In this document: positions 8,102 through 58,888 of the stretch, in pieces
Layout of the letters: each line of letters opens with the position of its first letter
Position numbering within the stretch: the first letter of the stretch is position 1
Source: Candidatus Gastranaerophilales bacterium
GTDB taxonomy: Bacteria > Cyanobacteriota > Vampirovibrionia > Gastranaerophilales > Gastranaerophilaceae
Direction: 5' to 3'
Length of the DNA stretch: 64,000 nt
Assembly (NCBI GenBank): GCA_944323875.1
Contig: CALUUH010000002.1
Coordinates: forward strand, 62,001-126,000
Notes under the pieces: model-generated
Databases searched by the model: none
The model's input: only the letters and a program-made list of their open reading frames with translations
Told to the model about the DNA's origin: nothing
Made by a program: the position numbers and the translations under genes

Positions 8102-8308
8102 TTATCTGAATCCTTCTTGATTGAATTGCATTTTTTGAACGATATGCCATTCTTTAGCTTTAAGTTCTTCAATTCTATTTTTAATGCCTTCAAGTTCTTC
8201 CGTAAGCGTTTCAAGATCCTTGTACTGCCTTACAAAAGGTTTTTCCGGCAATTCGCCCCAGCCGGGTGATAAACATAATTTGTCAAATAATTCTTTTGCG
8301 TCTTTCAT
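8102..8308 (-). CDS. Small coiled-coil protein, second gene of a two-gene unit
   Basis: 68 aa. Start 8308 is chosen because AGGAG lies 7 nt upstream; a longer open frame to 8422 has no SD and overlaps the preceding gene. The N-terminal part (LFDKLCLSPGWGELPEKPF) is followed by a heptad-like helix (LETLTEELEGIKNRIEELKAKE). It lies 22 bp behind the 71-aa gene and shares its sigma-28-like promoter. A chaperone or adaptor role would fit the shape, but I do not recognise the family. Confidence 0.65.
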   Translation of the reverse strand: MKDAKELFDKLCLSPGWGELPEKPFVRQYKDLETLTEELEGIKNRIEELKAKEWHIVQKMQFNQEGFR

Positions 8309-8330: not shown

Positions 8331-8546
8331 TTATGACTGCTTTTGCGTAATAAATGAGTGCAGCATATCAAGAAGATCGAAGTTGCCGTATTTAAAAGTT
8401 GCCGGCTTATTTGAATATTCACTGTCTATAATTCTTTGTAATTCCCTTGTCTCTTTATAATCTAATGAATTGAAATCAAAACTGGTCATTTCGCCGTAAT
8501 CAATCATTAAATCTTCCATATCCAAAACTTTTTTCTCTTCTGACAT
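8331..8546 (-). CDS. Small acidic protein, first gene of a two-gene unit
   Basis: 71 aa, acidic (MSEEKKVLDMEDLMIDYGE at the N-terminus), with no membrane segment. A strong SD (AAGGAG) precedes the ATG, and a TAAAGTCT-N12-GCCGATTA element (8581-8608) ends 35 bases upstream. The family is unknown. Sharing this promoter type with the genes at 26398, 38629, 39068 and 58529 suggests a common regulon. Confidence 0.7.
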   Translation of the reverse strand: MSEEKKVLDMEDLMIDYGEMTSFDFNSLDYKETRELQRIIDSEYSNKPATFKYGNFDLLDMLHSFITQKQS

Positions 8547-8580: not shown

Positions 8581-8608
8581 TAATCGGCAGGATGCTCGAA
8601 AGACTTTA
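8581..8608 (-). promoter_or_regulatory. Sigma-28-like promoter for the 8546-8102 unit
   Basis: Read on the minus strand: TAAAGTCT (8608-8601), a 12-bp spacer, GCCGATTA (8588-8581). This is close to the known FliA consensus TAAAGTTT-N11-GCCGATAA. GTAACAAAT lies 13 bp upstream (8630-8622), as it also does before the 26398 gene. Confidence 0.65.
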
Positions 8609-26047: not shown

Positions 26048-26398
26048 TTAACCGGCCAGTGCGTCACAGACGAAATCTGACATCCGGTCAAACATATCGT
26101 GGATAGGTTTTGAAATATCAAATGTAATCTCTTTGTTTATTTGTGCAAGTTTGTCATCTATAGATACAACTTTTGCTTTTTGCGGTTCAACAACTGTAAA
26201 TTGATTTTGTTCGATTTGTTTTAGCAGGTTAATCGAAAAATCCTGTACGGCATCTACTCTCTGCATATTTTTTGCGGCCGTCGCCAATAGAGTATCGCCT
26301 AGCTCTTCGCCATACTTGTACTCCCGAATAATTTCTTTACAAATTAAGTTTGACATCAAGTTTGCATCGAGAGCCGCATTTTCAGTTTGTGAGCGCAT
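26048..26398 (-). CDS. Small helical protein under a sigma-28-like promoter
   Basis: 116 aa, no membrane segment. A helical N-terminal half (NLICKEIIREYKYGEELGDTLL) leads to a charged linker and a second helix near the end (FDISKPIHDMFDRMSDFVCDALAG). GGAGG lies before ATG 26398, and the TAAAGTTT-N12-TCCGATTA element ends 39 bp upstream. It is convergent with the nitroreductase. Family unknown; the promoter links it to four other small-protein units in this window. Confidence 0.68.
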   Translation of the reverse strand: MRSQTENAALDANLMSNLICKEIIREYKYGEELGDTLLATAAKNMQRVDAVQDFSINLLKQIEQNQFTVVEPQKAKVVSIDDKLAQINKEITFDISKPIHDMFDRMSDFVCDALAG

Positions 26399-26436: not shown

Positions 26437-26464
26437 TAATCGGAAGGCATGTGAAAAAACTTTA
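26437..26464 (-). promoter_or_regulatory. Sigma-28-like promoter for the 26398 gene
   Basis: Minus strand: TAAAGTTT (26464-26457), 12 bp, TCCGATTA (26444-26437). GTAACAAAT lies 12 bp further upstream (26485-26477), matching the arrangement at 8622-8630. Confidence 0.65.
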
Positions 26465-38561: not shown

Positions 38562-38589
38562 TAAAGTTTTTATTAAAGTAAGCCGTTTA
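38562..38589 (+). promoter_or_regulatory. Sigma-28-like promoter for the 38629 gene
   Basis: TAAAGTTT (38562-38569), 12 bp, GCCGTTTA (38582-38589), ending 40 bp before the ATG. Confidence 0.62.
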
Positions 38590-38628: not shown

Positions 38629-38994
38629 ATGTTTAATTCAGTGAATAATCCTTTTAACAGACCGATAGAGTCGTCAACTTCGTCTGACAAAAATAAGCAG
38701 CAGCAAAATCAGGAAAAGAAGGAGCAGGAGAAAAAATATCTTGAACAGGAAGAACAAGATGAAGTAAGGCTTGGCGGAATGCCGGTTCTTGATGAAGATG
38801 AAATAAAATATATGACAAAAAACTATATAAACAATTTAATTCAAGAAAATCAGGATAATGAAAAGATCGTAAAGAAATTGGAAAAATATCTTGAAAAGTT
38901 TGATGTAAAAAAGTTTATGAAGAAAAATCCAAATCTGACGAGTCCGGATTTTTATATGGTTATGTATAATGAAACCGAAGGGTTAGTAAAATAA
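38629..38994 (+). CDS. Small protein with Gln/Glu/Lys-rich linker, paralogue of the next gene
   Basis: 121 aa from ATG 38629 (GAGG 7 nt upstream; a 4-residue longer start is possible). A disordered N-terminal part (NKQQQNQEKKEQEKKYLEQ) precedes a helical domain, YINNLIQENQ...LEKYLEKFDVKKFMKKNPNLTSPDFYMVMYNETEGLVK. That domain aligns with YVANILANQ...YMSTFDAAKFIKMYGPF...MYAVT in the gene at 39068. Unknown function; same promoter type as its paralogue. Confidence 0.7.
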   Translation: MFNSVNNPFNRPIESSTSSDKNKQQQNQEKKEQEKKYLEQEEQDEVRLGGMPVLDEDEIKYMTKNYINNLIQENQDNEKIVKKLEKYLEKFDVKKFMKKNPNLTSPDFYMVMYNETEGLVK

Positions 38995-39006: not shown

Positions 39007-39034
39007 TAAAGTTTTGAAAAAGAAAATCCGTAGA
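39007..39034 (+). promoter_or_regulatory. Sigma-28-like promoter for the 39068 gene
   Basis: TAAAGTTT (39007-39014), 12 bp, TCCGTAGA (39027-39034), ending 34 bp before the ATG. Confidence 0.6.
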
Positions 39035-39067: not shown

Positions 39068-39454
39068 ATGGAAATTAACAACGTATCAGGTGCTTACACC
39101 TCAGCAGCAAAAGTAACGGAAACCGACGACGAAAAAGAAACCAAAAAGGCTCAAGAAGAGGAAGCAAAAGAAGCCAAAGTCGGTGACAAAGAAGAGAAAG
39201 ACACGATAGAGCTTTCACAGGATGATGATTACGGCGAGGACGGTATAGAAGAAAAAGCGAACAATTATGTTGCAAATATTCTTGCCAATCAAAACCTGAC
39301 AGAAGAATCACGTGCATTAATTCAGCAGTATATGTCAACATTTGATGCAGCAAAATTCATTAAAATGTACGGCCCGTTTACAACGACGGCGGAGGTTTCT
39401 GCGGCGATGTATGCAGTGACTTCACACATGATAAAATATCAACAAGATGAATAG
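39068..39454 (+). CDS. Small acidic protein, paralogue of the previous gene
   Basis: 128 aa. Acidic, low-complexity N-terminal ~65 residues (ETDDEKETKKAQEEEAKEAK), then the shared domain NNYVANILANQNLTEESRALIQQYMSTFDAAKFIKMYGPFTT...MYAVTSHMIKY. AAAGAAAGGATGGTACC precedes the ATG. It has its own promoter and terminator, so the two paralogues are separate units within 500 bp. Confidence 0.72.
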   Translation: MEINNVSGAYTSAAKVTETDDEKETKKAQEEEAKEAKVGDKEEKDTIELSQDDDYGEDGIEEKANNYVANILANQNLTEESRALIQQYMSTFDAAKFIKMYGPFTTTAEVSAAMYAVTSHMIKYQQDE

Positions 39455-39992: not shown

Positions 39993-40047
39993 TTGACAAA
40001 TGCAGATTAATACATTATAGTAGTGTAAAGATTTAGTATAATGTATT
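39993..40047 (+). promoter_or_regulatory. Promoter with 11-bp inverted-repeat operator
   Basis: TTGACA (39993-39998), 17 bp, TATAGT (40016-40021). AATACATTATA (40009-40019) and its exact complement TATAATGTATT (40037-40047) lie 28 bp apart centre to centre, the left arm over the -10 box and the right arm near the start of transcription: a good repressor site. Confidence 0.7.
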
Positions 40048-40064
40048 TTTATGGAGTAAAATGT

Positions 40065-41081
40065 ATGATAAGATTAAATTTTACAAAGTTTGCCTTCACG
40101 CTAGCCGAAGTCCTAATCACTCTCGCTGTTATCGGCGTGGTAGCTGTTCTGACAATCCCAGGTTTAATAAAGAATCACAACGAAAAAGCATGGAGCACGG
40201 CACAAGATGTATTCACAAAGCGCTTAGAGGTCGCAACACGTCAGATGAATACAGAAGAAAAACTTGCGGGTTACGCAAATACCATGGATTTTGTAAACGA
40301 ACTAAAGAAATACATCAAAATCACCAGAGTGTGCGATAATAGCGAGATTACAAAGTGTTTCAATAAACAAGTAATCTGGAACGAAGGTGATGAGCCTATA
40401 GATATGTCACAGATAAAAACATCCGCATCATTAGGCCAGAGTGATTGGAATACAGATACAGTAGCTGTACAGTTTGCAAACGGCGTAAATGCAATAATCG
40501 CCTACAATCCAAACACAACGCAAGACCCGTATAACAATCAGTTTGCGGCAACCTCAGCAAGTATGGCAATACTTTATGATGTATCTGGAAATAAAAGCCC
40601 CAATACTTTTGGTAAGGATATTTCACAAGTTAATGTATCCAAGGTAGGGAAAAATTGTACAGTTGAATTTGTCGGGAATTGTTTTTCTGCCCCATTTATT
40701 CCTACTCCCTTAACTAATAGCGAATGTGAAAATTTGAAAGAAAGTTTAGGAATAGAAAAATGTAGCTCAAATGATAACGATTATTGGGGAGGAGCAGTAA
40801 AAGCATGCAATGGAATAAATAATCTTCCAACAATGGAAACATTATCCCAAATCGCAACTATAATATATGAGGGAAATCCAATCATAGACACCTACGAAAA
40901 TCGTGAAAATTTAGTGTATATAGCAGGATCTGCAAGTTCCATAGGACTTCCTGAACCTACATTTGCACTATGGTCAAATGAGGAGTCAGGTTATTATAGG
41001 CGCTTTTTAGCCAATTATACAGAAGCTACCCCTGTTTATCGAGGTTATTCTGGTGTTAGAGCAATGTGTATAATCAAATAA
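40065..41081 (+). CDS. Type IV pilin-like protein 2 (no variable tail)
   Basis: 338 aa from ATG 40065, preferred over 40041 because GGAG lies 8 nt before it. Prepilin motif FTKFAFTLAEVLITLAVIGVVAVL, then AWSTAQDVFTKRLEVATRQMNT..., the same plan as the 15487 and 45868 proteins (shared KYIKITRVCDNSEITKCF and YWGGAVKAC-type segments). The C-terminal domain (LWSNEESGYYRRF...GYSGVRAMCIIK) resembles theirs but is written in AT-rich codons (TAT, GGT, AAT) without NNC clustering. So it is a paralogue not marked by diversification. Confidence 0.83.
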   Translation: MIRLNFTKFAFTLAEVLITLAVIGVVAVLTIPGLIKNHNEKAWSTAQDVFTKRLEVATRQMNTEEKLAGYANTMDFVNELKKYIKITRVCDNSEITKCFNKQVIWNEGDEPIDMSQIKTSASLGQSDWNTDTVAVQFANGVNAIIAYNPNTTQDPYNNQFAATSASMAILYDVSGNKSPNTFGKDISQVNVSKVGKNCTVEFVGNCFSAPFIPTPLTNSECENLKESLGIEKCSSNDNDYWGGAVKACNGINNLPTMETLSQIATIIYEGNPIIDTYENRENLVYIAGSASSIGLPEPTFALWSNEESGYYRRFLANYTEATPVYRGYSGVRAMCIIK

Positions 41082-58094: not shown

Positions 58095-58529
58095 TTAACC
58101 TAAAGCGACTAATTGATCCATAAATTCCAATACACCTGCACTGGATTCTTCGGACAAACCTTTTGCAAGATAGCGGTCAAGTTTGTCATTATCTACACCG
58201 CGTACATTATACGGTCTTTCTGTTTCAATACCAAACATTTTATTCAACGCTGCCATTTCAGGAGCGGTTTCAAAATATGTTTGTGCTCTCTGCATAGTAG
58301 CTTCCGGTGAGGTATTAACTTTTCCTGCTTTTATAAAGCCCAAATCACGCATAACAGCCATTTTTGGATCTTCTGTCAGCAACTTATCACCGACTTCTGT
58401 TGTCTGTTGTTGTTTTGGTGCTTCTTCAGCCTTAACTTCTTTTTTACCTTTTCCTTCTTCAGTTTTAGCATTTTTGCTTGTTTGTACATATTGACTTGCT
58501 AATCTGAATTTTAAATCTTCGATACCCAT
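58095..58529 (-). CDS. Small acidic/basic-block protein under a sigma-28-like promoter
   Basis: 144 aa. N-terminal GIEDLKFRLASQYVQTSK, a low-complexity linker (KKEVKAEEAPKQQQTTEV), then a C-terminal helical part (QTYFETAPEMAALNKMFGIE ... VLEFMDQLVALG). It has an AAGGAG SD and no membrane part. The promoter element at 58561-58588 keeps the -35 but has a weaker -10 than the other four. Unknown family. Confidence 0.68.
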   Translation of the reverse strand: MGIEDLKFRLASQYVQTSKNAKTEEGKGKKEVKAEEAPKQQQTTEVGDKLLTEDPKMAVMRDLGFIKAGKVNTSPEATMQRAQTYFETAPEMAALNKMFGIETERPYNVRGVDNDKLDRYLAKGLSEESSAGVLEFMDQLVALG

Positions 58530-58888
58530 TTCGGTTCTCCTTTATTTACTCACATTATTAGTAACGTATCTTGCTATTGGAAACTTTAATGATTTTCGTC
58601 AAATAATCACTTTTGTTTACAATAATTTACAATATCTTTTTCCTGTTTTTTATACCTCTCATAGAAAAATTGATTTCCATATTTATATAAAGTATTTTTG
58701 TATTGAAAAATTGCTTATTCAGTATATATTTTGTAAATAAAAATTAACAAATCGTTACACAAATCAATCGAAAAATTTCTCCACAAAGACCGATTTTACC
58801 TGGAGAATAAAGACTAGACTCTTGGCTAATATACTTTTGCGATACTCTTTTGATAACATTTATATATAATTTTGGAAAGGAACTAAGA
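58530..58888. other. AT-rich intergenic region
   Basis: It carries the promoter of the leftward 58529 gene and the upstream region of the LuxR-type gene (AAAGGA SD at about 58875). No ORF or RNA gene recognised. Confidence 0.6.
58561..58588 (-). promoter_or_regulatory. Sigma-28-like promoter for the 58529 gene (weak -10)
   Basis: Minus strand: TAAAGTTT (58588-58581), 12 bp, TACGTTAC (58568-58561), ending 32 bp before the ATG. Confidence 0.45.

Follow-up and report, generated by a model that had tools for sequence, protein, structure and literature searches.

The closest described systems to the one reported here are the late regulon of the sigma factor FliA (sigma-28) in Escherichia coli, Salmonella and Bacillus (SigD), the sigma-28 of Chlamydia trachomatis, and the non-flagellar type III secretion systems, those of Myxococcales among them. 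In C. trachomatis, chromatin immunoprecipitation gave only two sigma-28 targets, hctB and tsp (PMC12282069). Non-flagellar type III systems have been defined by the presence of most of sctJNQRSTUV, the absence of flgB, flgC and fliE, and an associated secretin (Abby and Rocha 2012, PMC3459982). Here, we analyzed a 64 kb stretch (bases 62001-126000 of contig C2; the window) from the 1.94 Mb draft genome, 97% complete, of a Candidatus Gastranaerophilales bacterium, in which five sigma-28-like promoter elements precede genes for small proteins. Gastranaerophilales are non-photosynthetic Cyanobacteriota. At the level of sequence, a FliA-type regulon in a flagellin-less lineage that keeps its export gate is well supported. 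We consider it likely that the elements are promoters of the single FliA of this genome, that the regulon comprises about 13-20 transcription units, and that its products are substrates or helpers of a flagellum-type export machine without a flagellin filament.

Compared with the FliA regulon of E. coli, Salmonella and Bacillus, the sigma factor belongs to the same family, the two boxes are the same and the targets likewise lie apart from the export gate genes. However, the spacer between TAAAGTTT and GCCG is here 12 bases in most cases, one more than the 11 found there, and there is no flagellin target; the targets are instead murein hydrolases, EF-hand proteins and families that are uncharacterised. 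As in C. trachomatis (PMC12282069), sigma-28 has been retained without a flagellum and its targets re-assigned, but here they amount to about 13-20 units and an intact flagellar-type export gate is kept. Gastranaerophilales without a complete flagellar set had already been noted (Soo et al. 2014, PMC4040986; a termite-gut genome, PMC5877343), and a text search of both papers found neither a FliA regulon nor a role in type III secretion described. A full-text search of the open-licence literature returned no earlier description of such a regulon in this lineage, in agreement with the suggestion of the first-pass annotation that it may be undescribed.

Sigma-28-like elements in the window and the genome

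The first-pass annotation had proposed five sigma-28-like promoters in the window, each with a 12-bp spacer and each followed by an ATG with a Shine-Dalgarno sequence. We found all of them where they had been placed, four exact and the fifth weaker, with TAAAGTTT-N12-GCCG(A/T) as their consensus. The pattern TAAAGTYT-N12-NCCGW has four exact copies in the window and none in 100 dinucleotide-preserving shuffles, and the chance expectation for four exact copies is essentially zero. The gaps between the end of the 25-mer and the ATG are 37, 41, 42, 36 and 34 nt, with a Shine-Dalgarno sequence in all five cases. The whole target set was recovered at the 12-nt spacing; spacings of 9-11 and 13-15 gave scattered matches and, at the target genes, only a chance re-reading of the 39007 site.

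The first candidate promoter, TAAAGTCT-N12-GCCGA (8584-8608, minus strand), lies 37 nt 5' of the ATG at 8546, where a 71-aa protein without Pfam or NCBIfam match begins (8331-8546, minus). This is the first gene of a probable two-gene operon, and the second small gene (8102-8308, minus; MKDAKELFDKL...) has its own Shine-Dalgarno sequence and is probably on the same transcript. The second, TAAAGTTT-N12-TCCGA (26440-26464, minus), precedes the gene of a 116-aa uncharacterised soluble protein (26048-26398, minus), which is 92-95% identical in relatives L099 and L100. On the plus strand, TAAAGTTT-N12-GCCGT (38562-38586) and TAAAGTTT-N12-TCCGT (39007-39031) precede the genes of two tandem paralogues of 121 aa (38629-38994, plus) and 128 aa (39068-39454, plus), named below by their first base. 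The weaker element, TAAAGTTT-N12-TACGT (58564-58588, minus), stands before the gene of a 144-aa uncharacterised protein present in three genera (58095-58529, minus; the 58529 gene). Two near-matches in the window, at 40084 (plus) and 59793 (minus), were rejected as promoters because both fall within open reading frames (ORFs).

We extended the scan to the whole genome, running the pattern searches against a reversed-pattern control, and recovered about 13-20 targets. If 11-13 bases are allowed between TAAAGTNT and CCGW, the genome contains 20 copies of the motif. Among the exact copies with the spacing of the window elements, 13 of 15 are followed 25-62 nt later by an ATG that has a Shine-Dalgarno sequence, while none of the five exact copies with other spacings properly precedes a gene (Fisher p = 0.0014). 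Rejected as promoters were two intragenic exact copies with the window spacing (L013, L018), three intragenic ones with other spacings (L007, L010, L016) and two copies not followed by a gene start (L001, L019). Candidates with one or two mismatches contribute around five more genes; the two-mismatch scan gave 107 matches, below the 148 of the control, so this count is uninformative and the list served only for positional inspection of candidates. When 263 ORF starts from the window and the loci of this genome were scored, 13 had 11 or more matches out of 13, and regulon genes already listed account for 11 of them; the same score was found at about 2 of 250 other ORF starts. Six targets share the N-terminus MG(M/L)(A/S)ASQAR and are referred to as ASQAR proteins; a seventh ASQAR gene, on contig C21, has a degenerate element. 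The first-pass annotation had described every target as small, which holds inside the window; elsewhere in the genome the targets include proteins of 345-795 aa.

Both boxes are also conserved in relatives. At least 11 of 13 matches were found upstream of 21 of 30 ASQAR genes, 22 of 25 orthologues of 39068 and 19 of 24 orthologues of 38629, in many genera, and in these regions the boxes and the distance to the ATG are kept while the spacer varies. The box positions carry 1.6 bits each and the spacer 0.27, a contrast that is partly built in, since the sites were chosen by box score. The element at 26464 is retained in two Gastranaerophilales relatives with its boxes kept and its spacer altered. 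The fifth site, doubtful on its own, is conserved upstream of the orthologues of the 58529 gene, roughly as TAAAG(T/A)TT-N12-N(T/C/A)CG(A/T). Separately, a leader GTGAGTAAATAA, found around 10-35 nt before the ATG of these orthologues (L131-L141), is almost invariant even where protein identity has dropped to about 30%, which points to a conserved function of the leader. Across 146 genomes of the family, the motif has 1481 occurrences, compared with 760 of the reversed control; the excess is seen in both flagellin-less (1045 against 452) and flagellated genomes (436 against 308), and is stronger in the former.

FliA, the export genes and the undetected flagellin

The sigma factor that such elements would call for is encoded in this genome: a single protein exceeds the FliA/WhiG cut-off, a FliA with 246.8 bits (TIGR02479 cut-off 189.6). 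Its gene is convergent to, and directly beside, the operon fliMN-fliO-fliP-fliQ-fliR, whose assignment was confirmed by Pfam and whose export gate genes are intact, with strong matches. The switch protein of this operon has SpoA domains, matches both the FliN and the SctQ models and is SctQ-like. FliE, FliF, FliH and FlhA are encoded in a second operon, together with a protein in the fliG slot; the export core encoded comprises FliE, FliF, FliH, FlhA, FliO, FliP, FliQ and FliR. The sole match of the protein in the slot between fliF and fliH (340 aa; L044:14076-15098, on contig C19) was a weak one to MgtE_N; a FliG C-domain was not found in it, the search for this domain being confined to the slot. 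At a distance from the other flagellar genes, we also observed a 491-aa protein that carries the C-terminal cytoplasmic portion of FlhA alone (PF00771, 157 bits, profile positions 314-655; L045:6854-8329, equal to C25:16853-18328), possibly a second substrate-docking platform.

A search for flagellin (PF00669) that was positive in E. coli, Bacillus, Caulobacter and Thermotoga found none in this genome, and the sample of its genus, six genomes counting this one, was likewise negative. Since no flagellin is detectable, the regulon is something other than an ordinary motility regulon. In the family, flagellin is present in 59 of the 146 genomes and was undetected in 87, and the flagellin-less state is common to about 22 genera. 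Rod and hook proteins follow the same division, with mostly five to ten strong matches in flagellin-bearing genomes and mostly one to four weak ones in those without flagellin; this genome has one weak rod-family match, and its FliE scores 61 bits. In one relative, G092, there are 23 flagellin-domain matches, several of them in open frames of 600-1400 aa.

One could argue that the FliA promoters are real but that the flagellar genes are a decaying remnant, FliA having been rewired to unrelated cytoplasmic genes as in Chlamydia. This is the main rival to the export reading, and the undetected flagellin, the few and weak rod-protein matches and one HD-GYP target all favor it, as does the view of Soo et al. 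(PMC4040986), who read the incomplete flagellar sets of most Gastranaerophilales as non-functional loss. However, FliA exceeds the cut-off in 140 of the 146 genomes with its frames intact (the remaining six are 57-85% complete), which argues against simple decay, and the intact gate genes, the spread of the flagellin-less state over so many genera and the number of targets that look made for export also speak against it. We therefore regard decay with rewiring as unlikely.

The assignment of the elements to FliA itself can also be questioned, because a second group-3 sigma factor, a SigB/SigF-like protein on contig C11, scores 136 bits against the FliA/WhiG model, and this or another factor could read the element with FliA present by coincidence. 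In flagellated relatives, though, TAAAGTAT-N11/12-(T/C)CG(A/T) stands 33-57 nt before the start of about half of the 17 flagellin genes examined, the others being without a clear element, and this ties the element to FliA and to the flagellar genes that the first-pass annotation had linked with sigma-28. As both boxes also fit the classical sigma-28 consensus, a different sigma factor is very unlikely, and we infer that the elements are read by FliA. The proposal of the first-pass annotation, sigma-28-like promoters that form a regulon, is supported.

Products of the regulon

The ASQAR proteins are found in all 146 genomes. An AlphaFold model of one (mean pLDDT 86, pTM 0.53) consists of a helix of 46 residues (2-47), a beta domain and a second helix of 75 residues (270-344); as modelled, this architecture is flagellin-like. 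The family gave no Pfam flagellin match, and a sequence search of solved structures returned no match. That a motile flagellum is still made, with ASQAR proteins unrelated to Flagellin_N as its filament and an ordinary motility regulon behind it, is hardly credible: the helix-beta-helix model and the flagellar filament proteins at the top of its weak fold matches speak for it, but the fliG-slot protein is without FliG_C, the switch protein resembles SctQ, and ASQAR proteins coexist with flagellins in flagellated relatives.

Among the other targets, a 795-aa protein combines LysM, amidase and lysozyme domains and has no signal peptide, and there are an EF-hand protein and an HD-GYP protein. The target N-termini tested have no Sec-type hydrophobic core, unlike four controls. 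The 39068 protein is predicted to have 49 disordered N-terminal residues followed by a compact helical domain (pLDDT mostly >90), with no convincing fold match to the model in the PDB; its identity with FlgM, suggested by the N-terminus, was rejected as neither Pfam nor NCBIfam supports it. Its family is present in 55 of the 87 genomes without flagellin and in 6 of the 59 with it, counts that are uncorrected for kinship among the genomes.

In flagellated relatives, the element precedes ASQAR genes and genes of EF-hand proteins. Two large proteins without signal peptide in relatives G086 and G128 (L176:3-1373, minus, and L168:154-1644, plus) are also encoded behind FliA-type promoters; one has a weak calpain-protease match and the other a HELGH metalloprotease-like motif. 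Besides these, the window (40041-41081) and L030:3940-5310 encode large proteins that resemble prepilins and carry FTLAEVLIT, the N-terminal motif of type IV pilins; several copies occur in the genome.

A putative secretion function

According to the reading that we prefer, FliA would transcribe from the elements across about 13-20 units and the products would leave the cell through the flagellum-type export machine. The ASQAR proteins would build an external structure, and the murein hydrolases, EF-hand and small proteins would act as helpers or secreted factors. The combination of a sigma-28 regulon with a stripped-down export machine and no detectable flagellin suggests that a flagellum has been rebuilt into a secretion device. 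Several observations weigh against this reading. The HD-GYP target looks cytosolic and would not require export, and the factor on contig C11 offers a second group-3 sigma. ASQAR proteins occur in flagellated relatives too, alongside flagellins, and are thus no hallmark of genomes without flagellin. Flagellar filament and cap structures lead the PDB fold matches of the ASQAR model, but weakly (E = 0.0065, low TM-score), and homology to flagellins was rejected after a profile comparison with the flagellins of relatives (hhalign probability <1%).

In order to place the machine among known ones, we compared it with the non-flagellar type III systems. It resembles those of Myxococcales and others (PMC3459982) in its flagellum-derived gate, the apparent loss of motility parts and the SctQ-like switch protein. 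From the sctJNQRSTUV core, six of eight components were seen (J, Q, R, S, T and V), SctN/FliI and SctU/FlhB lying outside the search. Unlike those systems, it keeps FliE, FliO and sigma-28 control, and the genes of its apparatus are dispersed around the genome. The retention of FliE places it outside the classical non-flagellar type III systems as Abby and Rocha (PMC3459982) delimit them, and a reduced flagellar export apparatus is the more fitting description.

More tentatively, in much of the Gastranaerophilales the flagellum may have become a FliA-run secretion or surface machine, with ASQAR proteins as a non-flagellin fibre or sheath and with FliA co-expressing, for export, murein hydrolases without signal peptide along with EF-hand proteins and small helical proteins; this broader scenario is possible, and we hold it with much less confidence than the regulon itself. 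If true, it would be a conversion of a flagellum to secretion distinct from the injectisomes known so far, and flagellated members of the same family would represent the intermediate state. For Gastranaerophilales, common gut bacteria that are uncultured, the sigma-28 regulon amounts to a direct inventory of proteins that may be sent outside the cell. As flagellated and flagellin-less members stand side by side in one family, the evolution from flagellum to secretion, a long-standing question, could be traced there.
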